This document shows, piece by piece, positions 4,326 to 63,446 of a stretch of DNA of 64,000 bases; positions within the stretch are counted from its first letter, which is position 1, and the number at the start of each line of letters is the position of its first letter. Position numbers and translations under genes: made by a program. The notes beneath the pieces are model-generated. The model was not told the origin of the DNA. It was given only the letters and a program-made list of their open reading frames with translations, and did not search any database. The DNA comes from Anoxybacter fermentans. Its GTDB lineage: Bacteria > Bacillota > Halanaerobiia > DY22613. The DNA is taken from NCBI RefSeq assembly GCF_003991135.1, contig NZ_CP016379.1, positions 124,001 through 188,000 of the forward strand, written 5' to 3'.

Positions 4326-4456
4326 TGTTTTTTATTCCTGGCCCGGGTTATTTGTGCGGAAATTTTGATTTGGATGAAATGATTTTACTAAGCAGGGAAT
4401 AATAACCTGATAGAGAAGGAGTATATAGAATAATTTTATTTAAAGGAGTGAAAATA

Positions 4457-6157
4457 TTGAAGCTCCCGTATGGTATATCAGATTTTGAGGTTATCCGTAA
4501 AGAGGGATATTTATATGTTGATAAAACAAAATATATAGAGCAATTAGAAGAAATAGGAAGATATCTTTTTTTTATAAGGCCGAGACGTTTTGGGAAGTCT
4601 CTTTTTCTTTCAACTTTGGAACATTACTATGACATTAATAGAGGTTCCCAGTTTGAAAGGTTATTTGGGGGGTTATATATCGGAAAGAATCCTACTGATT
4701 TGAGAAATAAGTTTGCAGTTTTAAAACTCAATTTTTCCGGGTTAAAAACTGATTCAAAAGGAAATGTGGAAGAATCATTTAGAAAAACTGTATTGAGTGG
4801 GTTAATTCAGTTTGTTGAAAGCTATTACCGGTTTTTTAATCATCCAGAAGAGATCATTTACAGGTTAGAAAAAGAAACAGACTTAAAACACATGTTAGAA
4901 ATTGTCTATAATGCGGTAAGAAAAATTGATAAAAAAATTTATTTAATCATTGATGAATATGACCATTTTGCCAATGATATTATTGCTATGGGAGATGAGA
5001 TATATTATCAGAATATTGTGCGTGCCAGCGTTTTTGTCCGGGATTTTTATGAGACTATAAAAATTGGAACTCAGGGTGTTATTGATAGGATATTTATAAC
5101 TGGAATTTCGCCCATTATGTTAGATGATTTAACCAGTGGTTTTAATATTATTTTAAATATTACTATGGACCCTGTTACCAATGAAATGTTGGGTTTTACA
5201 GAAGAGGAAGTAGAAGAGATCATTAAACAGATTAAAATTAGTGAAGATGTATTAGATCATAAAAGATTAAAGAAGCTTTTAGAGGAATATTATAATGGGT
5301 ATCTATTTAATGAAGACTGTAGTAAACGGGTTTATAATCCGGATATGATTTTTTATTATTTTGACCAATGGTTGAGACATAAAAAACCTCCAAAAGTGCT
5401 AATTGCTGATAATGTGAAAACTGATTATGGTAGGTTAAATCGTTTGGTTAAAAATAAAGCCAATCGTGAAATTATGGAGAATATTATTAAGAATGAGAAG
5501 ATAACAGCAGATATTGTTTCAAAGTTCTCCTTTGATAGGATGTATGATCAGAAATACTTTGTTTCTCTTCTCTTTTATCTAGGACTTTTGACCATTGATC
5601 AAAAGATCAGGACACGCCTTTTATTGAAAATACCCAATTTTGTGATTAAAACAGTCTTTTGGGAGTACTTTGAACAGAAATTGACTGAAGAGTATAAGTT
5701 GGTATTAAAAGAGGAGGAATTGAAAACAGCAATAGAAGCTATGGCTTATGATGGAGAAATAAAACCGTATATAGAGTTTATTAGTAAGAATGTTTTAAAG
5801 GTTTTATCTAATCGTGATTTGATGAAGTTTGATGAAAAATATTTGAAGGTTATTCTAATTAGCTTTTTGATTCAGAGCAATATTTATAAACCAATTAGTG
5901 AAAGAGAAGTTGAAAATGGATATATTGATATTTTTCTTGAAAAGGATATTGGTTTTGTTGATGTTAAGTATGAGTGGTTGTGGGAGTTGAAATATATAAA
6001 AAGAAGAGAAAAAGACCAATTGGAACGGATTAGAGAAGAGGGGCTGGCTCAGTTAAGAGAATATGCTGACAGTAATGTATTTAGAGATAAAAAGAATTTG
6101 AAAAAAGCATTGATAATTTTTATTGGAAAAGGAGAATATGAAATTGTGAATCTGTGA
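4457..6157 (+). CDS. AAA-ATPase-like / PD-(D/E)XK nuclease-like protein, copy 1 (TTG start)
   Basis: A 566-residue protein of the AAA-ATPase_like plus PD-(D/E)XK_9 (DUF1703) architecture. The N-terminal domain has the family's unusual P-loop RPRRFGKSL (K47), a Walker B strand ending DEYDHF (D166) and a conserved ITGISPIMLDDLTSGFN block. The C-terminal nuclease-like fold shows GYIDIFL (D491) and the E-x-K pair in WELKY (E510, K512). A TTG start at 4457 is preferred over GTG 4448. AAAGGAG overlaps that GTG but is correctly spaced from the TTG, and the paralogue at 17476 starts with ATG at the aligned position. The function of this widespread, often multicopy family is unknown. It is about two-thirds identical to the copy at 17476-19175, by eye. 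Confidence 0.8.
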   Translation: MKLPYGISDFEVIRKEGYLYVDKTKYIEQLEEIGRYLFFIRPRRFGKSLFLSTLEHYYDINRGSQFERLFGGLYIGKNPTDLRNKFAVLKLNFSGLKTDSKGNVEESFRKTVLSGLIQFVESYYRFFNHPEEIIYRLEKETDLKHMLEIVYNAVRKIDKKIYLIIDEYDHFANDIIAMGDEIYYQNIVRASVFVRDFYETIKIGTQGVIDRIFITGISPIMLDDLTSGFNIILNITMDPVTNEMLGFTEEEVEEIIKQIKISEDVLDHKRLKKLLEEYYNGYLFNEDCSKRVYNPDMIFYYFDQWLRHKKPPKVLIADNVKTDYGRLNRLVKNKANREIMENIIKNEKITADIVSKFSFDRMYDQKYFVSLLFYLGLLTIDQKIRTRLLLKIPNFVIKTVFWEYFEQKLTEEYKLVLKEEELKTAIEAMAYDGEIKPYIEFISKNVLKVLSNRDLMKFDEKYLKVILISFLIQSNIYKPISEREVENGYIDIFLEKDIGFVDVKYEWLWELKYIKRREKDQLERIREEGLAQLREYADSNVFRDKKNLKKALIIFIGKGEYEIVNL

Positions 6158-6599: not shown

Positions 6600-7802
6600 A
6601 TGAAAAAACCAGATAACATATTTAAGTTTTACGTATTTACATTTCTTAGAAATTTTGAACTTGTCATGCCTGTCCTGGTGCTGTTTTATTTAGATAACAA
6701 TTTAACGTATGCAAATATTTTCTTCTTGCAGGCCTGGTTTACTTTAATTATTATGATTTTTGAAATTCCGTCGGGAGCACTTTCAGATTTTTTTGGGAGA
6801 AAAAAGACGCTTTTAATAAGTGGTTTTATACATGCTTTTGCCTGTTGGATTTATTCAATCTCCAAATCTTTTGGGATGTTTTTAGTTTGTGAGACATTTT
6901 GGGGAATCTCTGCTGCCTTTGCATCTGGTACTTTGCAAGCATTTGTATATGACTCTCTTAAAGATTATAAACGTGAAAATGAAGCCAAACAAGTTTTTGC
7001 AAAAGTCCAGACAATTAGTTTGCTTTCAAAAGCTGTTTCTGCTGTAATTGGTGCCTATATTGCCAGTATTTACAGCTATCGCTTTGTCTTTTTTTTAACT
7101 ACATTTTCCTTCCTGGCAGCTTTTATTACGAGTTTGTTTTTCAATGAACCGAAATGTTTGCAAACAGTAAAAAGAGTTACTTTAAGAGATTATATAAAAC
7201 AAATCAAAGATGGTCTTAATATTTTACGTGGAAGTTCAATTCTGATTTTTTTAACGGTTGAAAGTACAATTATAAACACTTGTATCGCTCTTTCTTTCTG
7301 GTTCTTTCAGCCATTGTTACAGTCTCGTGGTCTTGCAATAGCAAATTTTGGTCTTGTTATTGCTATGTTTAATATTTTTTCCGCAAGTGGAGTAATTTTG
7401 GCACCAAAATGTGAAAAAATGATTGGAGCCCAAAAAACTATTCTGTTTAGTGAATTATTTCCAACAATTTTTATGATTGTTGTTGGAATTTGGATTAATC
7501 TTTATGTTGCTATTATCGGCTTTATAATTATTCACGGTATAAATATGATTCGTATGGCGCTATTCAATGATTATTTTAATCGCTATATAGATACTCAACA
7601 AAGAGCCACGGTACTGTCCTTGATTAGTTTTTTAGGTTCATTATCCTATGCAATTCTTGGCCCCATTGTAGGAAAGATAACAGATTATACAGGTTTGGAT
7701 GTTATATTAACAGGTATTGGAGTTGTTACTGGAATTTTGATTATTATGTTGGGTTTTATGAGACAAAGGTTATCTCAAGACTTACAGAGTTTAAATGCTT
7801 AG
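6600..7802 (+). CDS. Major facilitator superfamily transporter
   Basis: A 400-residue integral membrane protein with about twelve hydrophobic segments. The loop after the second segment reads GALSDFFGRKKTL, a clear copy of the MFS signature G-x-x-x-D-x-x-G-R-R/K. The start ATG follows CTGGAGG. The closest style is the Firmicute drug-efflux or uncharacterised MFS group; the substrate is unknown. It is flanked on both sides by remnants or deletion derivatives of the palindromic repeat, so it probably belongs to the accessory island rather than to a conserved operon. Confidence 0.85.
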   Translation: MKKPDNIFKFYVFTFLRNFELVMPVLVLFYLDNNLTYANIFFLQAWFTLIIMIFEIPSGALSDFFGRKKTLLISGFIHAFACWIYSISKSFGMFLVCETFWGISAAFASGTLQAFVYDSLKDYKRENEAKQVFAKVQTISLLSKAVSAVIGAYIASIYSYRFVFFLTTFSFLAAFITSLFFNEPKCLQTVKRVTLRDYIKQIKDGLNILRGSSILIFLTVESTIINTCIALSFWFFQPLLQSRGLAIANFGLVIAMFNIFSASGVILAPKCEKMIGAQKTILFSELFPTIFMIVVGIWINLYVAIIGFIIIHGINMIRMALFNDYFNRYIDTQQRATVLSLISFLGSLSYAILGPIVGKITDYTGLDVILTGIGVVTGILIIMLGFMRQRLSQDLQSLNA

Positions 7803-7991
7803 TGTTTTATCTTAATTTTTAAATAATTCATCGATATCACCCCATACAAATAGTATATGGAAGTTGCTGGGGCAAAGGGAATTGTATACTAAGTCTTCTA
7901 ATAAAAAAAGGAAGGAATCTCAAGGGATATTGAAGAATAATAGTTTAAGATTTTTTCAAAATATTGGAAAAGAGAGGAAATTTGATGGAAT

Positions 7992-8145
7992 GATTAAACT
8001 GCAAAAAGCTAATTTTGAGCGACATAGAAATTTTTCGCCAAATCATCTTAGCGAGATTTCCGACGAAATAAGGCCTCATCACAGGAGGTGATTTAGATGA
8101 TTCGAAAAATTTCTCAAGAAGCGAAAAATTAGCTTTTTGCTAACC
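7992..8145 (-). repeat. Internally deleted, inverted copy of the palindromic element with 7-bp target duplication
   Basis: It is a 154-bp copy in the opposite orientation to the full-length ones. It starts GATTAAACTGC and ends in the complement of the other terminus, and it lacks about 65 bp of the centre. It is flanked by ATGGAAT on both sides (7985-7991 and 8146-8152), a clean target-site duplication. Any reading frame over this stretch is accidental. Confidence 0.8.
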
Positions 8146-8704: not shown

Positions 8705-9733
8705 ATGATGGAAAATACGGAAGAAAAAAATCCATTAACTATTAGAGTTAATATCCTTACAAAGCTATGGACAGGGGACATAGATGGCAAAAATTCTGAA
8801 AGACGTTTAACAGGAATCATCGGTTCTATACGCTGGTGGATGGAAGCATTGGTACGGGGCCTGGATGGGTTTGCCTGTGACCCGACTGACACAGATTCTA
8901 AATCGCTATATCGCAAATGTGAGTTTGATTCATCGACTTTTAAAAAAAAATTTAATGAAACTGGAAGTTATAGAAAGGCCTTTGAAGAAAGTTTAAAATC
9001 TATTTGTCCTGTATGTCAAATTTTTGGTTGTGGAGGATTGTCTTCAGCTTTTAGATGGGTTAAGAAAGAAGAAGATAATAGTTCATTTACTTTGGAATTA
9101 ATTCCTCTTCGGCCTGTTTCGCAAGAGTTGTGGTGGTTGTTAGACAAAACTCTCCATATAATAACAACTTATGGTGCTGTTGGTGGTAAAATAACCCAAA
9201 AGCCCTATCCTAACTCTGACATTAATTATGGAATAGTTGAATTTGCATATAATTTTTCAAATTTACATCAGAAAAAACTTTCAGATATAAAAACCTGGAT
9301 TAAGGATATTGGAGGAAGGCAAGCTGTTAATTCTTCTGATTTGCCAAATTTTAAATATTTCTGGTTTATTCCAGGCTTTCATTTGAAAAAAGATGAAATA
9401 AATAAATTTCTTAGATTAGATGATAACGGTAATAAGATTAATACTAATTTAGAAGATGATGAAGAAGATTTCTATGAATTTTTAAGGGGGAATATAGGAG
9501 AGTCTAAGAAAATTTTTTCTTTTCCTGGGAAAAGTATTGAAATAGATGAATATTCTCCATGGAAGAAACTTCATGAATTATTTTACTCAACTATCGAAAT
9601 AGAAAGGCTTTGGGGTTATGTTAGAGATGAGAAAGATGTGAACAAAGTAGAAAGTATATTGTCTCGATTGACCAGAAAAGAAATTATTAAAGAAAAAATT
9701 ATTATAGGAGTGGATTTAATTGAACAATTGTAG
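8705..9733 (+). CDS. cmr1: Type III CRISPR RAMP protein Cmr1 (Cas7 family)
   Basis: A 342-residue RAMP that opens the cas operon. The N-terminus carries the Cmr1 signature: KLWTGDIDGKN, then RRLTGIIGSIRWWMEALVRG (residues about 30-55), ACDPTD, and the cysteine pair in CPVCQIFGCGG (about 100-110). LIPLRPVS and AVGGKITQKP are also standard Cmr1 blocks. Cmr1 caps the crRNA-guided RNA-targeting complex near the 3' end of the guide. AGGAGG precedes the ATG by ten bases, with a possible alternative ATG three bases later. Only 12 bases separate it from the next gene. Confidence 0.85.
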   Translation: MMENTEEKNPLTIRVNILTKLWTGDIDGKNSERRLTGIIGSIRWWMEALVRGLDGFACDPTDTDSKSLYRKCEFDSSTFKKKFNETGSYRKAFEESLKSICPVCQIFGCGGLSSAFRWVKKEEDNSSFTLELIPLRPVSQELWWLLDKTLHIITTYGAVGGKITQKPYPNSDINYGIVEFAYNFSNLHQKKLSDIKTWIKDIGGRQAVNSSDLPNFKYFWFIPGFHLKKDEINKFLRLDDNGNKINTNLEDDEEDFYEFLRGNIGESKKIFSFPGKSIEIDEYSPWKKLHELFYSTIEIERLWGYVRDEKDVNKVESILSRLTRKEIIKEKIIIGVDLIEQL

Positions 9734-9745
9734 GTAGGTGATAAA

Positions 9746-10834
9746 ATGAGGGATTTTTTGTGTCATAAAGTAAAATCGATAATGGATGAAATTGGTGATT
9801 TAAAAAAGATTGATAGTTTTGAATTTAAGGGGACTTATTATAGAGTAGGTAGTATGTTTGAAAAATTAATCTGTTGTGAAATTAATAAACAATCTGATAA
9901 AGAACTCGAAAAAGAACTTAAAACAATAAAGGAAAATTTAGTAAAAAAGATGAGAGAAGAAATGAAAAAAGAAATTCAGAAAAAAGCAGAAGAATATGAT
10001 AACATTTTCTGTAATTTATACAATGAAAACATTGAAAAACTCCATAAATGGGCCTGTATGCTCAAAATTCATTTTGTCTTCAAAGAAAAATACATTAGCA
10101 GAGATGATGATAATTTTTATTTTATTGACAATCCTGTAGCCAAAGAAAAAATATTTAAAATCCCAATCATTCATGCCAGTAGTTGGAAAGGAAATCTCCA
10201 TTGGGCCAGCCTTAGAAATTATGTTGCTAAATACAATCTAGAAGAAAGAGATGCCGCGAAAAATCATAAAAAAGAGGCTATTTATGCTGATAGAGTCCGT
10301 TTAATAAAACTGTATGGAACAGAACATGCTGCTGTAACCCGCTATCTGGATGGATTATATAAAGATATTGGACTATCGGGAGATGAATTTAAAAAATTTG
10401 CAGCAGAGGAGTTAAAGACAGAAACTCTTGAAAGAAGAGGCCGACTGTCTTTTTATCCTAATTTTTTTAAAGAAATTGATTATGAGGTAATAAATCCCCT
10501 TGATCGTATGAAACGTAGTTCCAAAAAAGGCCCAATTGCCATTGAAGTAATTTCTTCTTCCAAAGAACAGGTATTAAAATTATTTTATCTTCCCTTTGAC
10601 CTTATAGGACAAAAGAAGGATGAACCAGAAAAAATTGAGGAGATTAAAGAGGATTTGGAAATTGTTCGCCTGGCGGTTGTTTCATTATTAGAAAAATACG
10701 GAATGTCAGCCAAAAGAAAAGCCGGATATGGAAAAGCTGAGATTACCGGAGTGGAGATTAAAGCAAATTTTTATAATTTTGAAAATCAGGCATTAGATAT
10801 CAGTAAAGAATATTTTGGAGTAGATTGGAGGTAG
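9746..10834 (+). CDS. cmr6: Type III CRISPR RAMP protein, Cmr6-like
   Basis: A 362-residue RAMP. Residues 1-110 are a lysine/glutamate-rich helical, probably coiled-coil, region. The conserved part starts at IIHASSWKGNLHWASLRNY, the RAMP helix after the first strand. It continues with GRLSFYPNFF, the short block VINPLDRMKRSS followed by KGPIAIEVIS, and ends with YGMSAKRKAGYGKAEI, the glycine-rich RAMP loop. This order (G-x-L-x-F-x then N-P, then P-I-x-x-x-x-I, then G-x-x-x-K-x-x-G-Y-G) is how Cmr6 proteins read. Placing it before cas10 is unlike the classical cmr1-2-3-4-5-6 order. Assignment as Cmr6 is by pattern. Confidence 0.65.
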   Translation: MRDFLCHKVKSIMDEIGDLKKIDSFEFKGTYYRVGSMFEKLICCEINKQSDKELEKELKTIKENLVKKMREEMKKEIQKKAEEYDNIFCNLYNENIEKLHKWACMLKIHFVFKEKYISRDDDNFYFIDNPVAKEKIFKIPIIHASSWKGNLHWASLRNYVAKYNLEERDAAKNHKKEAIYADRVRLIKLYGTEHAAVTRYLDGLYKDIGLSGDEFKKFAAEELKTETLERRGRLSFYPNFFKEIDYEVINPLDRMKRSSKKGPIAIEVISSSKEQVLKLFYLPFDLIGQKKDEPEKIEEIKEDLEIVRLAVVSLLEKYGMSAKRKAGYGKAEITGVEIKANFYNFENQALDISKEYFGVDWR

Positions 10835-10841
10835 TTAAAAT

Positions 10842-13800
10842 ATGGGAAAAGGATCTGTGGTTGAACTTACACCCAAAGAACGCAAATTCCTTCTCTTGAC
10901 AGAGGTATTAGGTATTTTACATGACATAGGAAAGTTAGCAGAATCTATCCAGAAGTCGACCTCAAATAATGGTAAAGTCCTATTACCTTTTAGTGTTCAT
11001 ATTTTACGTCCTTTTTACGAATGGAATTTAGATAAAATTGAAAGGTTAAAAAGCAGAAGTGGGAAATATAGTCAGTATAAAAATTCTTATCATTGGATAA
11101 GTAAAGATGATTTAAAATTTTTAACAACGAATGTCGAAAATAATGACAAAGATAACAGTGAAAAAAAAGATGAAAATGAAGATGAAAAAAAAGATTTTTC
11201 TCATTTAAATAAAGAATGGAATAATTTAAAGATTGAATCTAGTCTTGTCAATAAAAGTGAGAAAATTGGTTTAACAGCGTTAAAACATCATTTTAAATAT
11301 AAAGATTGTATTAAACCAGATTCTTCTTTGGCATATCTGATTGCCCAAGCAGATAATTTGGATGCCTATGAAGATCGTTCTACCGATATAGATTATGATA
11401 AAGGAACAGATTATGTTTGTAATCCTTTTGGAGGAATATTAGAAAAAGAAGATAGAGATAAACTTAGAAAAGAAGTTTATTCTAAATTAGGTTTATTTAA
11501 AGAATCAATAAAGGGAATTTTTGAGGGAATATTAAACCTAGAAGGTGATGATATAGATGAAATTAGTAAACTTCGTTGTAAGTTTTATAATATTGCAGAA
11601 GAGATGAATAAAGCTGCTGCCATGTCAGTCGTACCGGATAATGATACCACTGTTTGGGATCATGGTTTTGCCGTTGGAAGTATTACCAAAGCAATGGTTC
11701 GTGCAATATTTTTAACGGAGAAATTAGCAAAAGTAGATAAATCTAAGGCAAATATTTATGAAAACTTTGAAAAGTTGAGAAATCTTAAATGTAATAAAGA
11801 GGAAAATGAAAAATTAGCTTTATATCTTTATCTTGCTGAGAAAAAATTGGATAGAGATAAAATTGAAAAAATTATGCCTGAAAATATAAAGCTTGAAGAT
11901 GTTTTTGCTTTTGAATATAATGGCAGTTTCAAAAAAGAAAATGCGAAGTCAGATAAAATTTATGCAAATTTCTTTTTGATAAAATCCAGTGAAGATAGTT
12001 TTACAAAAAAGTTTAGAAAAACTATTAATGAGAAAATAAATATAAAAAAATATGGTTTTTTCCAGGTGCAGGGTAATAAAACGAAGTTTTATGTAAACTT
12101 TTTCAAAAGTGGCGGCGCTGGTTGGCTGGATGATGAGGGGCAAAAGGTTAAGGTTAACGTCTATGATTGTCTTTTCGGCACACCCCATATATTAGCCGTT
12201 CAATATCCAGGCCGGGATTTTTGTACACAGGTTTTTCGCATGCCTGATTTCATTGGTCGGAGGACTAAGTTGAAAAAAGTTCTGGAAAAAGTTAAAAATT
12301 TAGTTGAAGTTGAATATTCTCTCGGCAATTGTGTCTATGAAGACATTAATGGAATGTATTTTCTAATTCCAGATTTAAAAAATACTGGACTTGAAGAAGA
12401 TATAAAAGAAAAAATCCATAAAATCTTTGCCCAGGAAGATCTTAAGGGAGTTATCTTGCCCAGGATTAAAACTACACCCTGTATAAATGAATCTGATACT
12501 ATCAACTTTGGTAAAGCCATTGTCAAATTGAAAAAGGAATATGAGCAGAGCTTTAAAAAGAGATTAGCTCCCTATCGGGTTGAAAAAATTACTGATTTTG
12601 AGTGGATTGATGAGTGGAAAGATGAGAATAAAGGAATTTGTCCTCTTTGTAGAAAAATGCCCGGTACTGTAAAAGATAAAAAATATGAGAGAGAACCTAT
12701 TTGTAATTGGTGTAATTCCATACGAGAAAATGCTCTAGAGAACAAAGATGTTAATAGAAATTCAAAATATCGATTTGCCAGTTTGATTAATCAAGTCATG
12801 GATGATAATAGAAATATTGCTTTGCTGGTGGGGGATATTGGACTTTTTGATCTCTGGTTAAAGGGAGACTATGTTTATACAACTTTTAACGTCCGGGGAA
12901 AAAAGAAATATTCCAAAACTCCCAGTCCGTCGCGACTTCGTTCCATTATCCGAAATGTCAACGATTTTACCGGCAAACTTGAAGAGATATTAACTGGGGA
13001 TGTTAATTTAAGGAAAAGGTTAATGGGGATAACATTTAAGATTAATAATTCTATAATTGATGAATTTAATTTGAAAACAGGTTTCTGGATTCATAAATAT
13101 GATAGTAATGATTTAGAAAATTTGATTAAGAAACATATTAAGGATGACAATAAAGCACAGATTTTCAAAGAAAAATTGTTAAAATGGCAAAATGGTACTT
13201 TTAAAATATTAGTTCAGCGAAAAATTGATATTGGAAAAGACATTGTTAAATGTGATACTGTTTATCCAGAAAACTATTTTGAAGGTATTTTAAAAGATGA
13301 TACTAAAGTTAGAGAAATTTTAGAGAAAATTTTAGCAGAGTATTTTAATAAGGAAAGAAAATTTGAGATAGAAAAGTCAAGGATTGAAAAAGAAAAAAAT
13401 GAAGCAAATTCTGTTGAAAAAATGATTAAGCTTACGGTTAAACAGAGTTCAATTATCAGGGCCAGAGTTATTTATGGATTAACAGATGAATTTATGATTT
13501 TAGTTCCTGGAAGAGAAGCAATTGCCATTCTTGAAAAATTATATGACATATTTAAAGAACGGTTCGGAAGAGTCCAGGGGCGTTTATCATTAAATGTAGG
13601 AATAGTCTATGCGCGGCATAAGTATCCTTTGTATTTAATCCTTGATGCCGGCAAAAGAATGCTCAAAGAATTCAGAGAAGCTCTGCACCGAAACAAAAAT
13701 GTAGAAATTAAATGTGAGATATACGAAGCTAATATTGAAAAAGATGAGAAGAAACCTGAAGTTACAATCTTAACAGATGGATTGGAAGCTGAAGTTTTGG

Positions 13801-14570
13801 ATATTTCAGAATGTGGTGCAAATAATGAGTTTAAAAAAATTAAAATAAGATTTAGTGATCCTCTGTTCAAAGATAAAGAATTAAATATTAAAATTCCTGA
13901 AAAAATACTGCTAAGGAAAAAAGAGCAGAATGAAAAAGAAATATTAGACGATTTTTATCCAATCTGGATTGTAATTAAAAATAATAATGATAAAGGCAAT
14001 AATGATAATGAAGAAAATAGCAAAAAATTAAAATTAATGAGGAATTCCAGTAATAAAAATTCTGATGAAGATTATGCTGTTTTGGAGGCCGGAGATACCA
14101 TTCTCTATGCTCCCAGTCTGGTAGATTTTCAATTCTTATCAACGGTAAATGACAGGATAAATATTGCTTTAACTAAAGAGGGCAACAATTCCTGGGAGAA
14201 ACGGATTCACACCATTAGGCCTTTAAAATTAAGACCTTATTTAATGGAAGAGTTTTTAGCGTTAATAGAGATTAACAAAAAAATAGACGAAAGAAAAATT
14301 CCTGCCTCAGGGCTAAAGAATCTTGAAACTTTATTGGCAGGAGAAATAAACCGCTTTTTTAAAAATTATGCTGAATGGCATAGTGGGCAAAAAGGACAAC
14401 TGATGAATAATATTGTTTCGGCAATGGTGGCTAATATCAGTAAGTTGGACAGGTATTTCAAAGATGGTGAAAAAATAGATGAAAAAGCTAGAGAAGAATT
14501 TTATCAAATTTTAAAAGACGGAAGGTTTTTTGATTTGATGGAATTGCGCACTTTTATAGAAGCCTTTTAA
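10842..14570 (+). CDS. cas10: Cas10-like large subunit, Csx11 / subtype III-C type, cyclase motif degenerate
   Basis: A 1242-residue protein. The HD nuclease motif LGILHDIGKL lies at residues 23-32 (H27, D28), with a second HD-domain element TVWDHGFAVG near 267-276. A CPLC...CNWC zinc ribbon uses C600, C603, C621 and C624. Where canonical Cas10 has GGDD, the sequence reads IYGLTDEFMILVPG (G879 to E883), so one glycine and one aspartate are lost and cyclic oligoadenylate synthesis is unlikely. Large size, sequence divergence and inactive palm match what is known of subtype III-C (Csx11). It lies 7 bases after cmr6, with GGAGG inside the cmr6 end. Lys/Glu-rich low-complexity insertions occur near 100-125 and 1040-1075. 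Confidence 0.8.
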   Translation: MGKGSVVELTPKERKFLLLTEVLGILHDIGKLAESIQKSTSNNGKVLLPFSVHILRPFYEWNLDKIERLKSRSGKYSQYKNSYHWISKDDLKFLTTNVENNDKDNSEKKDENEDEKKDFSHLNKEWNNLKIESSLVNKSEKIGLTALKHHFKYKDCIKPDSSLAYLIAQADNLDAYEDRSTDIDYDKGTDYVCNPFGGILEKEDRDKLRKEVYSKLGLFKESIKGIFEGILNLEGDDIDEISKLRCKFYNIAEEMNKAAAMSVVPDNDTTVWDHGFAVGSITKAMVRAIFLTEKLAKVDKSKANIYENFEKLRNLKCNKEENEKLALYLYLAEKKLDRDKIEKIMPENIKLEDVFAFEYNGSFKKENAKSDKIYANFFLIKSSEDSFTKKFRKTINEKINIKKYGFFQVQGNKTKFYVNFFKSGGAGWLDDEGQKVKVNVYDCLFGTPHILAVQYPGRDFCTQVFRMPDFIGRRTKLKKVLEKVKNLVEVEYSLGNCVYEDINGMYFLIPDLKNTGLEEDIKEKIHKIFAQEDLKGVILPRIKTTPCINESDTINFGKAIVKLKKEYEQSFKKRLAPYRVEKITDFEWIDEWKDENKGICPLCRKMPGTVKDKKYEREPICNWCNSIRENALENKDVNRNSKYRFASLINQVMDDNRNIALLVGDIGLFDLWLKGDYVYTTFNVRGKKKYSKTPSPSRLRSIIRNVNDFTGKLEEILTGDVNLRKRLMGITFKINNSIIDEFNLKTGFWIHKYDSNDLENLIKKHIKDDNKAQIFKEKLLKWQNGTFKILVQRKIDIGKDIVKCDTVYPENYFEGILKDDTKVREILEKILAEYFNKERKFEIEKSRIEKEKNEANSVEKMIKLTVKQSSIIRARVIYGLTDEFMILVPGREAIAILEKLYDIFKERFGRVQGRLSLNVGIVYARHKYPLYLILDAGKRMLKEFREALHRNKNVEIKCEIYEANIEKDEKKPEVTILTDGLEAEVLDISECGANNEFKKIKIRFSDPLFKDKELNIKIPEKILLRKKEQNEKEILDDFYPIWIVIKNNNDKGNNDNEENSKKLKLMRNSSNKNSDEDYAVLEAGDTILYAPSLVDFQFLSTVNDRINIALTKEGNNSWEKRIHTIRPLKLRPYLMEEFLALIEINKKIDERKIPASGLKNLETLLAGEINRFFKNYAEWHSGQKGQLMNNIVSAMVANISKLDRYFKDGEKIDEKAREEFYQILKDGRFFDLMELRTFIEAF

Positions 14571-14595
14571 AAATGTAAAGAAGGGTGTGAAAAAA

Positions 14596-15606
14596 ATGAT
14601 TAAAGATATGTGTGAAAAAAAGATAGGATTATTAACGGCCATTGATCCCATTCATATCGGTACAGGTGGTTATCGGATGGATCGGGTGGACAACTCAATT
14701 ATAAGGGATGTGGATGGAATTCCCAAAATACCTGGGACAAGTCTGTCTGGAGCTGTAAGAAGTTATGCCGCATTACATTATAATGATAATAAATGTGGTG
14801 GTGCTAATAATTGTGGTGCTGAGAACTGTGAAATTTGTCAGACATTTGGTGTTACCGGTGACAAAGCATCTTTAAAAGGCCTTGTCAGTTTCTATGATGC
14901 TTTGATTCTCTTGTTTCCTGTGGCCACTGTCGCAGGGCCCATCTGGATTACAACTCCCAATAGAATTAAAAATTTCTTAAAAGAATTTCCTGATTCGGAT
15001 AAAAAGAAAAATTATTTAGACAAACTGCCGGAGATTAATGATAATGAGTGCTATTTAATGTCAACCAATACTGGAGAATTAAAAGATATTTCTGAAATTA
15101 ATTTAGGTTGGCTGTTGATAAATGTTAAAAAGCTGGAGAAAACAGATGAAGGCAAAGGAAATCAGGAAGCAAAAGAAGAGTCAGATAAGATTGAAAAACT
15201 TAAACAACTTGCAAAAGATATTGAGGAAAAAATCATTCTGAATGTTGATAACTTTATTAGAAAAAGAATTGCTCTGGTTAATGACAAAATTTTTAATCTG
15301 ATAGTCAATGACAATCTGGAAGTTAGAACTTCAGTGGCGATTGATCCTGTGACAGGTGCTGCAGTAGATGGAGCTCTATTTACATATGAAGCCATACCTC
15401 GACTGACGGTTTTTTATTCGATAACAATTATAGCTAAACCTGAATATTTTCAGAATTCAATTGAATATTCAAAAGCCAAAGAAATTGTAGAAAAAGGGTT
15501 TGAGTATTTAGAATATATGGGAATTGGAGGTATGACTACCCGGGGATTTGGTAGAATGCGTTATTTGGATATCTGGGCCAAGGAAGGGCAGGGTGGACAA
15601 CCATGA
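14596..15606 (+). CDS. cmr4: Type III CRISPR RAMP protein Cmr4 (Cas7 backbone, target RNase)
   Basis: A 336-residue Cas7-like RAMP. The N-terminus reads TAIDPIHIGTGG, then RVDNSIIRDVDG, IPKIPGTSLSGAVRSY. Residue D32 in VDNSII occupies the position of the target-RNA cleaving aspartate in Cmr4/Csm3. A cysteine-rich thumb follows (CGGANNCGAENCEICQTFG), and the C-terminus has the G-rich loop YMGIGGMTTRGFGRM. Cmr4 forms the helical backbone and cuts bound RNA every six bases. ATG 14596 is preferred over GTG 14587, which is too close to AAGGG. Its stop overlaps the next start as ATGA. Confidence 0.85.
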   Translation: MIKDMCEKKIGLLTAIDPIHIGTGGYRMDRVDNSIIRDVDGIPKIPGTSLSGAVRSYAALHYNDNKCGGANNCGAENCEICQTFGVTGDKASLKGLVSFYDALILLFPVATVAGPIWITTPNRIKNFLKEFPDSDKKKNYLDKLPEINDNECYLMSTNTGELKDISEINLGWLLINVKKLEKTDEGKGNQEAKEESDKIEKLKQLAKDIEEKIILNVDNFIRKRIALVNDKIFNLIVNDNLEVRTSVAIDPVTGAAVDGALFTYEAIPRLTVFYSITIIAKPEYFQNSIEYSKAKEIVEKGFEYLEYMGIGGMTTRGFGRMRYLDIWAKEGQGGQP

Positions 15607-16016
15607 GAGAATTAAAAAACTTAGAAAAGATTTGCGCTGAAAAAGGACATGATTTTGTAGAAAAAGTCAAGGAGAAGAATAAATCTTCTATTGTCAACAC
15701 TGTCAATAAAGCTATGGGAATATTGCAGGAGAATGGCATATATGCATATTTTATCTGGTTAAATTCCCGTTCATCAGATGAAGAAAAAGTAATAGCCCGA
15801 GAATTAATCAATACATCTGAGAACTTATTAGAAGATTATGATAAAGAAATTTTTAAATCCCAAAAAGGTTTTCAGAGTTTATTTGAAGCAGATGACATTA
15901 GATTAAACAGTTTTATAATGATGAAGAAATTACTTTATTTGATGTTGACTTATGCATTATATATAGCTAAAGGATTATCGGATAAAAGTGATGAACAGGG
16001 TGAGGATAATGGCTAA
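15603..16016 (+). CDS. cmr5: Type III CRISPR small subunit Cmr5 (Cas11)
   Basis: A 137-residue, almost entirely helical protein in the Cmr5 position, translationally coupled to cmr4 by a 4-base ATGA overlap. The segment VNTVNKAMGILQENGIYAYFIWLNS resembles the Cmr5 pattern of a mid-protein helix ending N-G-(I/L) and a following aromatic helix. Cmr5 forms the inner filament of the effector complex, contacting crRNA/target. The size is right (family about 120-170). Identification rests on position, size and this weak motif. Confidence 0.7.
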   Translation: MRELKNLEKICAEKGHDFVEKVKEKNKSSIVNTVNKAMGILQENGIYAYFIWLNSRSSDEEKVIARELINTSENLLEDYDKEIFKSQKGFQSLFEADDIRLNSFIMMKKLLYLMLTYALYIAKGLSDKSDEQGEDNG

Positions 16017-17055
16017 GTGGAGAGCAGTGGAAATAATTTTAGAAGCCAGATCGCCAATACATATTGGAGAGAGACGGATGGGTGTAGTAAATTTGACCAG
16101 GCGGTATATTCCAGGGAAAAATTTCTGGGGAGCATTTACGGCTATTATTGCCAGAGAGATGATGGATAATTATAATCCAGAGTTTTATTTAACTGTGGGA
16201 AAAGAGGTAAAAGAAAATATGCGTTTCAGTTATTTTTATCCCTATGATCTTAAAGAAAAAAAGGTTTTTATACCAATATATCTGAGAGACGGACTGGAAT
16301 ATCTAGTTTTTTCAGATGTTGATAAAACAGGTTATTTAATATCCGAATATGAATTTGATGGCAAATATGTAGAGAGTTATGCGTCAGCTGCCCTGGATTA
16401 TTCCAGTGGAACAGCTCAGGATCATTATCTTCATGAATTGGAGTATTTAAAACCAGGCCTGGGATTTAAAGGTTATATTTTTTACAAAGATAAAATGAAA
16501 ATTATTGATACTAAAACTATCGATATTGATGCCAAAATTGATGAATGGATTAATAAATTGGAGAATGTAGGAGTAGGCGGCGGCAGTACCCGGGGTTTTG
16601 GCCGGATGATGGTGATTGATACTAAATCAGTAGAGGGAAAGATTGATATTTTTGGTGATTTAACAAAGATTAATCTAAAGATTGGCCAGACTGTTTTAAG
16701 AAAGTGGCAAGTTAATTTAAAAGATGATTTGCCAATTGATTTAGTAAATAATGAAACAAATACAGTAAATAATGAAACAAATAAAAATAAAGCTGCCAAA
16801 AAATTGGATATAGCTCTTATGCCATTGGTAATAAAATCTTCAGATAATAATAAAAAAAATATTGAATTAACAGCTTTGAGAAATTTTAATGGCGACATTG
16901 AGCCAGTGGTAGGCCGAAACTGGTCCAAAACATCAGGTGCCGGTCAAAAGTTTTCAAAGGCGGATATAACCATAAGTCCCGGTTCCACCTTTGAAAGTGA
17001 AATTGAGGAGAAATTAATTTTAGATAGTTTTGGTTTGATTTATTTACAATCTTAG
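16009..17055 (+). CDS. Type III CRISPR RAMP protein, Cas5-like (Cmr3/Csx10 position)
   Basis: A 348-residue RAMP closing the operon. It begins AVEIILEARSPIHIGERR, then RRYIPGKNFWGAFTAII, the beta1-loop-helix of a RAMP fold, and has the glycine-rich loop GVGGGSTRGFGRMMV near residue 190. A second domain without cysteines follows a linker containing two repeats of NNETN (about 245-258). The operon has Cmr1, Cmr6, Cas10, Cmr4 and Cmr5 but no other candidate for the group-5 subunit that binds the 5' handle of the crRNA, so I infer this fills the Cmr3/Csx10 role. ATG 16009 (after AGGGTGAGG) is preferred over upstream ATG 15988, and it overlaps cmr5 by eight bases. Confidence 0.6.
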   Translation: MAKWRAVEIILEARSPIHIGERRMGVVNLTRRYIPGKNFWGAFTAIIAREMMDNYNPEFYLTVGKEVKENMRFSYFYPYDLKEKKVFIPIYLRDGLEYLVFSDVDKTGYLISEYEFDGKYVESYASAALDYSSGTAQDHYLHELEYLKPGLGFKGYIFYKDKMKIIDTKTIDIDAKIDEWINKLENVGVGGGSTRGFGRMMVIDTKSVEGKIDIFGDLTKINLKIGQTVLRKWQVNLKDDLPIDLVNNETNTVNNETNKNKAAKKLDIALMPLVIKSSDNNKKNIELTALRNFNGDIEPVVGRNWSKTSGAGQKFSKADITISPGSTFESEIEEKLILDSFGLIYLQS

Positions 17056-17105: not shown

Positions 17106-17119
17106 GTATTTTATATAAT

Positions 17120-17342
17120 GATTATACTGCAAAAAGCTAATTTTTCGCTCAAGGAGAAATTTTTCGAACCATCTAAAGCTCGATTTCAGTCGAAATAAGG
17201 CACACTAATCAATGGGGCCTTCCTGGCCCTTGATTAGCTCATCACATCCTGTGATGAGGCCTTATTTCTCCTTCAATTTCGCTAAGATGGTTTATCGAAA
17301 AATTTCTATATCGCTCAAAATTAGCTTTTTGCAGTATAATCA
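17120..17342 (+). repeat. Full-length palindromic element with 7-bp target duplication
   Basis: A 223-bp copy. It runs from GATTATACTGCAAAAAGC to the complementary end GCTTTTTGCAGTATAATC(A). It is flanked by ATATAAT on both sides (17113-17119, 17343-17349). The arms pair along almost the whole length, with an inner hairpin around GGGCC and a second short palindrome around ATCACATCCTGTGAT. The remaining 130 bases before the next gene are AT-rich without a gene. Confidence 0.85.
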
Positions 17343-17475
17343 ATATAATGAGTTCAGAAAATCTAAAGAAAACAGGTAAAATTTTATCACTGTAGGGAAA
17401 TCGAATAAAGGAAAATAGATTTGATTGGAGAAACTAAGTGAATAGAAGTTAGATGATTTTTCAGGAGTGAGAAAG

Positions 17476-19175
17476 ATGAAGTTGCCCTATGGTATAACTG
17501 ATTTCAAAAAAATAAGGGAAAAAAATTATCTATACATAGATAAAACAAAATATATTAAAATATTAGAAGATTTAAATTCCGATTATCTTTTTTTTATAAG
17601 ACCCAGGCGATTTGGAAAATCTCTTTTTTTATCTATGCTGGCATGTTATTATGATTTGAATTTAGCATCGGATTTTGACAGTTTATTTGGAGATTTATAT
17701 ATTGGTAAAAATCCAACTGATTTAAGAAATAGCTATATGATTTTAAAAATGGACTTTTCAGGTTTAAAGACGATTCAAAAGAAAATTTAGAAGATTCTTT
17801 TAGAAAAACAGTTTTGAGCAGTTTAACTCAATTTATTGAAGTAGATTATAGCCGATTTTTTTCTGATTCTAAAGAGATTGTTCACTTATTAGAAAAAGAA
17901 ACCGATTTAAAACGGATGTTGGAAATTGTATATAATGTTGTGAAAAAAGCTGATAAAAAAATATATTTAATTATTGATGAGTATGACCATTTTGCCAATG
18001 ATATTATTGCCATGGGAGATAGTGAATATTATCAGAAGATTATACAGGCCAGCGGCTTTGTGCGGGATTTTTATGAGACATTAAAAATTGGAACTAAGAG
18101 CGTTATTGATAAAATTTTTATTACCGGAATTTCTCCAATAATGTTGGATGATTTAACCAGTGGATTTAATATTACTATGAACATTACAATGGAACCTCTG
18201 ACCAATGAAATGTTAGGTTTTACTGATGAAGAAATAGATCAGATTATTAACAGGGTTAAAATAGATTTAGAACAAATAAGTCAAATAAAAGTTCAGTTAA
18301 AGGAATATTATAATGGGTATTTATTTAATGAGGAATGTAAAAAACGAGTGTATAATCCAGATATGGTTTTGTATTATTTTGATCAATTATTAAGATATAA
18401 TAAGCTACCCAGAGAATTAATTACAGATAATGTTAAAACTGATTATGGTAGATTAGACCGCTTAACAAGAAATCAGGAAAATCGAAAAACATTAGAAAAG
18501 ATTATTTTAAATGAAGGAATAATAACAAAAATTGTTTCCAAATTTTCTTTTGATCGGATATTTGAACAGGAATATTTTATCTCACTTCTATTTTATATGG
18601 GGCTTTTGACTATTAATGGTACAAAATATGGTTTACTTCAACTTGGGATTCCTAACTATGTGATTAAAACGATCTATTGGGAATATATTGAGAAAAAATT
18701 AAGAGAAGATTATAAAATAAATTATGATCTGGTAGAGTTACAGAAAGTAGTATGGCAAATGGCATATGATGGCAAATTAGAACCTTTTTTAAAGTTTATT
18801 ACAGAGAATGTGTTAAATATTTTGTCTAATCGTGATATGATTAAATTTAATGAAAAATATTTAAAAGTAATTTTATTTAGTTATCTTGTCTTAAGCAATT
18901 TATATAAACCTACCAGTGAAAAAGAAGTGGAAGGTGGATATATAGATATTTTTTTAGAGAAAGATATTCGTTTTTCTGATGTTAAGTATGAATGGTTGTG
19001 GGAATTAAAATATTTGAAGAAAAATGATACCGAACAGTTGGAGCAAGTGAAAGAAGAAGGATTAAGACAACTAAAAAAATATGCTGAAAGTAAAAAATTT
19101 AAAAACAAAGGGAACCTGAAACTGGCTTTAATTATTTTTATAGGAAAAGATGAATATGTGTTAGTGATGCCTTAA
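17476..19175 (+). pseudogene. AAA-ATPase-like / PD-(D/E)XK nuclease-like protein, copy 2 (frameshifted)
   Basis: A paralogue of the gene at 4457-6157, in the same orientation, 13 kb away on the other side of the cas operon. It has the same RPRRFGKSL P-loop, DEYDHF Walker B, DLTSGFN block and C-terminal GYIDIFL...WELKY nuclease motif. A one-base deletion near 17771 (LKT-DSK in copy 1 corresponds to AAG-AC-GAT here) throws the frame into a stop at 17790. The correct frame resumes immediately and runs to 19175. The break lies between Walker A and Walker B, so neither half would be a functional ATPase. The rest is undamaged, implying a very recent mutation or a base-calling error. Confidence 0.8.
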
Positions 19176-28771: not shown

Positions 28772-28994
28772 GATTTTACTACAAAAAGCTAATTTTTCGT
28801 TTCATAAAGAAATTTTTCGAACCATCTTAAAGTTTGATTTCAGTCGAAATAAGGCACACTAATCAAATGGGCCCTCCTGGCTTTTGATTAGCTCATCAAT
28901 CCTTATATGAGGCCTTATTTCGATTGAAATCTTACTAAGATGGTTAAACGAAAAATTTCTATGGTGCTCAAAATTAACTTTTTGCCGTTTAATT
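28772..28994 (+). repeat. Full-length palindromic element with 7-bp target duplication
   Basis: A 223-bp copy flanked by ATTAAAA on both sides (28765-28771 and 28995-29001). Its ends have drifted (GATTTTACTAC / GCCGTTTAATT) compared with the consensus. It sits between the convergent macrodomain and cca genes. The rest of the 366-base gap is AT-rich, apart from the cca terminator. Confidence 0.85.
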
Positions 28995-29082
28995 ATTAAA
29001 AATACAGAAGAATTTTTCCCAACCAGGAAAAGTAATTATAACAATCAAGTTGCTTAAAGGGAATAATAGCTAAGGATAAATC

Positions 29083-46205: not shown

Positions 46206-46430
46206 ATGGGGTGTCTCGGGCATTTGTTGGGTATGATTTTAGGTTTGATTGGGGGAGTTATTGGTCTTGTCTTTGGAATTTTTGGTAGTCTTATTGGAGT
46301 TGTTGTCGGAGGTATAGGAATTATCATTGGAATTATCGTTCCTATGCTTATCTTTGGTATTCCTGTACTTCTCCTTATTGCAGGAGTCTGGTTTTTGTGG
46401 TGCCGACCAAAAGGAGAAAAAACTAATTAA
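46206..46430 (+). CDS. Small glycine-rich membrane protein
   Basis: A 74-residue protein, start ATG after GGGAGGTGG. It is almost entirely hydrophobic with regular glycine/isoleucine alternation (GLIGGVIGLVFGIFGSLIG), likely two closely packed helices, and ends in a basic tail CRPKGEKTN. No family function is recognised. Small glycine-zipper proteins of this kind are often envelope-stress associated, but nothing here proves it. The palindromic element begins two bases after the stop. Confidence 0.7.
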   Translation: MGCLGHLLGMILGLIGGVIGLVFGIFGSLIGVVVGGIGIIIGIIVPMLIFGIPVLLLIAGVWFLWCRPKGEKTN

Positions 46431-46431
46431 G

Positions 46432-46653
46432 GATTAAACTGCAAAAAGCTAATTTTTCGCGTCTTGAGAAATTTTTCGAATCATCTAAAGTTCAATTTCC
46501 GCCGAAATAAGGCTTCCTGACTCAAAGGGCCCTCCTGGCCCTTGATTAACTCATCACCTCCTGTGATGAGGCCTTATTTCGTCGAAAATCGAGCTAAGAT
46601 GATTTGGCGAAAAATTTCTATGTCGCTCAAAATTAGCTTTTTGCAGTATAATC
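46432..46653 (+). repeat. Full-length palindromic element with target duplication
   Basis: A 222-bp copy from GATTAAACTGC to GCAGTATAATC. ATTAAG (extendable to ATTAAGGAT if the first bases are counted as target) occurs at 46426-46434 and again at 46654-46662. Confidence 0.85.
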
Positions 46654-46713
46654 ATTAAGGATGAAGATAAAAGGTTTAAAGATGTATGTATAGAATTTAA
46701 TTGAGGTGAGATA

Positions 46714-48973: not shown

Positions 48974-49007
48974 GATACCCCTCCCTATTTATAATATTCT
49001 TATATAT

Positions 49008-49225
49008 GGTTAAACTGCAAAAAGCTAATTTTTCGCTTTTTGAGAAATTTTTCGAATCATCTAAAGCTCGATTTCCGCCGAAATAAGGCTTCCTGACTCA
49101 AAGGGCCCTCCTGGCCCTTGATTAGCTCATCAATCCTCAGATGAGGCCTTATTTCGTTGGAAATCTCGCAAAGATTTAGCGAAAAATTTCTATGTCGCTC
49201 AAAATTGGCTTTTTGCAGTTTAATC
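49008..49225 (+). repeat. Full-length palindromic element
   Basis: A 218-bp copy from GGTTAAACTGC to GCAGTTTAATC, flanked by ATATAT (49002-49007 and 49226-49231). The internal arms are very similar to the 46432 and 63118 copies. Confidence 0.85.
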
Positions 49226-49267
49226 ATATATTACTAATTTAAGTATATTTGATATTCATATCTGGTG

Positions 49268-63073: not shown

Positions 63074-63110
63074 ATAGACAGGCCGATGAATGGGTCTGTC
63101 TATTGTTTTT
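63074..63110 (+). terminator. Terminator of the gatCAB operon
   Basis: ATAGACAG / CTGTCTAT stem extended by a GCC/GGT wobble, followed by TGTTTTT. Confidence 0.8.
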
Positions 63111-63117
63111 AATAAAT

Positions 63118-63338
63118 GGTTAAACTGCAAAAAGCTAATTTTTCGCTTCCTGAGAAATTTTTCGAATCATCTAAAGCTCGATTTCCGCCGAAATAAGGCT
63201 TCCTAATCAAAGGGCCCTCCTGGCCCTTGATTAGCTCATCACATCCTGGGATGAGGCCTTGCTTTGTCTGAAATCTCGCTAAGATGGTTTAGCGAAAAAT
63301 TTTTATGTTGCTTAAAATAAGCTTTTTGCAATAAAGTC
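63118..63338 (+). repeat. Full-length palindromic element, right end diverged
   Basis: A 221-bp copy starting GGTTAAACTGC and ending GCTTTTTGCAATAAAGTC. The centre matches the 46432 and 49008 copies, including GGGCCCTCCTGGCCC. No target duplication is recognisable, so this copy is older or rearranged. Confidence 0.8.
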
Positions 63339-63446
63339 ACTTTAAAATTTTCCAGGTAACCTTTTGGAGTATAATAAAATATAGAGAGGAAAATAAATTA
63401 TCGGTGGAGAAATTTTAAAGAAAAAATCAGGCAGGGAGAAGAGAAA

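Follow-up and report, generated by a model that had tools for sequence, protein, structure and literature searches.

The type III-C operon in the 64,000-nucleotide stretch of DNA analysed here (the window) encodes a Cas10 protein whose second palm domain (palm2) has lost both glycines of the GGDD cyclase motif, yet retains the acidic residues D882 and E883 at the motif and D665 at beta-1. Judged from sequence, the complex is likely to recognise target RNA, to cleave it through Cmr4 and to act on DNA through the HD domain of Cas10, using guides supplied in trans and producing no second messengers.

The operon holds the complete type III-C gene set in the order cmr1-cmr6-cas10-cmr4-cmr5-cmr3, with all six reading frames open:

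8705..9733, + strand: cmr1, Cas7-group RAMP (NCBIfam TIGR01894, E 1.7e-12, over cut-off; PADLOC Cmr1)
9746..10834, + strand: cmr6, Cas7-group RAMP (PADLOC Cmr6, E 3.2e-60)
10842..14570, + strand: cas10, type III-C family (Csx11-like), 1242 aa (PADLOC Cas10c PDLC01314, E 5e-69; NCBIfam csx11, E 3.9e-32, below its own cut-off; III-C clade, support 99/99)
14587..15606, + strand: cmr4, backbone RNase subunit (TIGR02580, E 1.6e-38)
15603..16016, + strand: cmr5, small subunit of III-C type (PADLOC Cmr5, E 1.1e-25; III-C model PDLC01471, E 2e-23)
15988..17055, + strand: cmr3, Cas5 group (PADLOC Cmr3, E 1.8e-56)

Membership of type III-C is indicated by a Cas10 of the Cas10c/Csx11 family, by five Cmr-type subunits and by the absence of a palm2 cyclase motif, whilst the marks of an active Cas10 that synthesises cyclic oligoadenylate (cOA), i.e. 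GGDD or an effector-linked variant of it and an effector gene in the locus, are both missing, the latter among the ten flanking ORFs scanned. In Cmr4, D35 (14689-14691) aligns with D26, the RNase residue, of Pyrococcus furiosus Cmr4 (alignment to 4w8w/4wnz). No Rfam family was matched between window positions 7000 and 19000. AAA-ATPase/PDDEXK paralogues lie on either side of the operon region (4448-6157 and 17467-19175), the second being split into ORFs 17467-17790 and 17814-19175 and probably a frameshifted copy. A dispersed repeat of ~230 bp with inverted ends is present at window positions 7990-8140, 17116-17345, 28780-29008, 46423-46657, 48999-49227 and 63109-63352, and copies of it flank the operon. 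With 636 genomic occurrences of its 18-base arm, CTGCAAAAAGCTAATTTT, over both strands, it is a very abundant MITE-like element.

Within Cas10 the following features could be placed:

10920..10925, + strand: HD motif, H27-D28
11286..11354, + strand: further HD-domain residues, H149 and H150 (11286-11291) and D171 (11352-11354), common to the MAG homologue described below
12639..12713, + strand: zinc-finger cysteines C600, C603, C621 and C624, conserved throughout, or nearly throughout, a set of 12 III-C Cas10s
12834..12836, + strand: palm2 beta-1 Asp, D665 (in LLVGDIG), which pairs with the YADGNNFG Asp of a GGDD Cas10
13479..13490, + strand: LTDE, residues 880-883, the true counterpart of GGDD by phmmer, hhalign and MAFFT alignments

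The predicted HD nuclease set thus comprises the motif, which the earlier note had correctly described as intact, together with the distal His and Asp residues (H27, D28, H149, H150 and D171), all of which are common to the nearest homologue.

The register of the palm2 motif required correction. The segment IYGLTDEFMILVPG at window positions 13470-13512 corresponds to residues 877-890 and falls, as first reported, inside palm2 (residues 858-951; Pfam Cas10-Cmr2_palm2, E 9.4e-08); from it the earlier note had concluded that GLTD replaces GGDD. It is true that palm2 contains no GGDD, and a search of the whole ORF found no canonical GGDD elsewhere, but the proposed register is off by one residue, the counterpart being LTDE (880-883). 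A phmmer search with residues 869-953 against PDB sequences matched P. furiosus Cmr2 (3ung, 4h4k, 4w8y, 3w2v), weakly (E 0.3-0.5), and in this match VIYGLTDEFMILVP pairs without gaps with LIYAGGDDVLAILP; profile-profile alignment with hhalign, of the window Cas10 plus its homologue against GGDD Cas10s, sets IYGLTDEF over VFSGGDDT; and a MAFFT alignment of 32 Cas10s places LTDE under GGDD in the same columns. All three methods disagree with the GLTD register, which is rejected. At beta-1, LLVGD665 lines up with IYAD of a GGDD Cas10 in the hhalign comparison, anchored by a common D-N-x-I-A segment just upstream, this piece scoring low alone.

An error of one residue alters what can be claimed about catalysis. 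In the LTDE register the two glycines have become leucine and threonine, the first aspartate is kept (D882) and the second is replaced by glutamate (E883). In the GGDEF enzyme PleD, the magnesium ligands are the beta-1 Asp D327, the motif residue E370 and one main-chain carbonyl (PMC7288161); D665 and D882 of the window Cas10 match the positions of D327 and E370. The hairpin otherwise resembles that of type III-B Cmr2 (P. furiosus; 4w8y, 3ung), to which it aligns without gaps and with which the operon shares Cmr-type subunits, although the window protein has LTDE for GGDD and a large insertion, the stretch of ~200 residues that separates beta-1 from the hairpin. It is also reminiscent of degenerate GGDEF domains (Caulobacter CC3396, Bacillus subtilis YybT) in that the hairpin ends in DEF and the metal-ligand positions are kept whilst the canonical motif is lost; the protein context is different. 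AlphaFold models of residues 437-1242 and 851-961, each built with one homologue, reached pLDDT values of 34 and 58, and Foldseek and VIA-align comparisons with the small, low-confidence model (851-961) returned nothing meaningful and no Cas10 rows; the models are too poor for structure to provide evidence either way on palm geometry.

With both glycines gone from the palm2 hairpin, this Cas10 most likely makes no cOA, and the remaining palm2 acids are probably remnants of the ancestral site. The published description of type III-C is of systems with neither a cyclase active site nor known effectors, half of whose loci retain HD (PMC11229360), and III-C (Csx11, MTH326-like) has been regarded as an inactivated-polymerase group since 2011 (PMC3150331; also PMC6013697). 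The lost cyclase motif is a known property of the subtype and not a special replacement, and the earlier proposal that this complex does not signal is essentially the published view of III-C, supported here but not new. That proposal, i.e. defence by RNA cleavage and HD DNase without a second messenger, agrees with the III-C operon and with the intact HD and Cmr4 aspartate; the retained acidic metal-ligand positions fit it less well. The case for an inactive cyclase is built on III-C membership and the missing glycines, and not on any loss of catalytic acids. Against it stands the retention of D665, D882 and E883, unlike in other sampled III-C Cas10s, with which metal or NTP could still be bound.

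The nearest homologue is encoded in a Halothermothrix MAG (contig JAENYK010000010.1; G404, L037/L043) and is 41% identical to the window Cas10; it carries FVYQMADEFMLLLPG at the motif site, with MADE over GGDD, and LLVGDIGMFD at beta-1. Searches of genome and viral contigs, plasmids, phages and three class-level genome sets yielded no further member of the branch, so that it is represented by one close homologue only. In this MAG (L037:16024-18690) the related III-C operon has a CRISPR array ~2 kb away, whose repeat core, AATCCACGCACCCGCATAGGGTGCGACT, resembles a type I-C repeat. A maximum-likelihood tree pairs the window Cas10 with its homologue (100/100) and places them as a deep branch beside the 21 other sampled III-C Cas10s, their sister group (94/96), within a III-C group supported at 99/99. 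The window system shares with type III-C (Csx11/MTH326-like Cas10) its gene set, Cas10c profile match, degenerate palm2 and the absence of an effector found nearby, but its Cas10 is ~20% identical to the other III-C Cas10s and differs from them in keeping the beta-1 Asp, the acidic pair (LTDE or MADE) and the full HD set. In the other 21 the beta-1 Asp is lost (G-Q/K-F, T-L-S and similar) and the motif site reads EPRA, TPLL, RPER and the like, the first D persisting in just one (L003, FPDQ). The HD motif is variable among them and lost in five (L013, L014, L015, L017 and L021), a subclade in which the palm carboxylates have also gone and neither active site is recognisable.

The retained carboxylates invite a different, though rather improbable, interpretation by analogy, in which the degenerate palm2 would bind nucleotide and metal without cyclising and so regulate the complex; it might, for instance, sense ATP and thereby gate HD. 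Both branch members retain all three ligand carboxylates, whilst LT in one and MA in the other stand where the glycines had been, and there are precedents among degenerate GGDEF domains, some of which bind GTP or hydrolyse ATP, that of Caulobacter CC3396 binding GTP and thereby activating its EAL domain (PMC7288161). However, only two sequences are compared, and since they have ~43% of all aligned D/E residues of the palm2 region in common in any case, the retention of these three is not significant. A broader form of this idea, to which we likewise give little weight, is that the lineage keeps a half-degraded palm2 that still binds both nucleotide and metal and either controls the HD or RNase function or yields an unusual product; it would then be a surviving halfway stage between signalling type III Cas10s and the dead cyclase of the other III-C systems.

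The earlier note had taken the lack of a CARF, Csm6 or Csx1 gene in the window as fitting the absence of signalling. The ten flanking ORFs indeed gave no PADLOC defence-effector match, the only match to the Csx1 model in the genome (3.56 Mb, one contig) lying at 643 kb, but this says little, because at 637-645 kb, ~0.5 Mb from the window operon, the genome has a type III-A locus encoding a GGDD Csm1, a Csx1/Csm6-like CARF-HEPN protein and a Cas6. The cell thus probably has cOA signalling at its disposal, even if this does not run through the window complex. That the window Cas10 is itself a working cyclase despite its atypical motif, signalling in trans to the III-A effector at 643 kb, is highly improbable: the carboxylates are retained, a CARF-HEPN effector is present in the genome, and GGDE and AGDE variants do occur in effector-bearing loci, but none of the published active variants found with effectors lacks both glycines (PMC11229360), both are substituted here, the effector adjoins its own GGDD Csm1, and the window Cas10 falls inside the III-C clade.

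Non-signalling defence by the window complex would depend on guides from elsewhere in the genome. CRISPR arrays, sought by one repeat-end pattern that may miss other repeat types, were located at genome positions 636741-636895, beside the III-A locus, and 717394-740216; none was detected within the window, and no Cas1 was detected in the genome. Two repeat families, GTTTGTAGCCTACCTATGAGGAATTGAAAC and GTTTGAATGCAAGTTCCACTAAAACAAGGATTGAAAC, are present in these arrays and alternate block by block at 717-740 kb. Guides would probably be drawn in trans from the arrays at 636.7 kb and 717-740 kb after processing by the III-A Cas6; Cmr4 would then cut the target RNA and, once RNA is bound, the Cas10 HD domain would cut single-stranded DNA. 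The lack of Cas1, of a nearby array and of adaptation genes, together with the split AAA-ATPase gene alongside, could instead mean that the locus is decaying and inactive; this seems very unlikely, given six open operon genes, intact HD and Cmr4 residues, and arrays and a Cas6 elsewhere in the genome.

Another III-C operon, a canonical one, occupies 37.7-44.9 kb of the same genome and is nested in a BREX operon in the arrangement brxC-pglX-[III-C]-pglZ-brxL (L038:276-17541, ~32.3-49.5 kb of the genome). In four other genomes (L069, L070, L071 and L072) III-C lies beside or between BREX genes (brxC/pglXI/brxH/pglZ/brxA), within ~10 kb, so that 5 of ~22 III-C loci are BREX-linked and this RNA-guided system recurs as a partner of BREX. 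None of the papers searched brings BREX, PglZ, CRISPR and Cas10 together, and the association may merit more attention than the Cas10 motif finding itself.

For the III-C family, the simplest reading of the sequences is that the glycines of the cyclase were lost first and the carboxylates later, the window branch, known from two sequences, holding the earlier state. A lineage without the glycines but with the carboxylates suggests a sequence of steps by which the cyclase was taken apart, and would offer a clean test of ATP binding by a degenerate palm.
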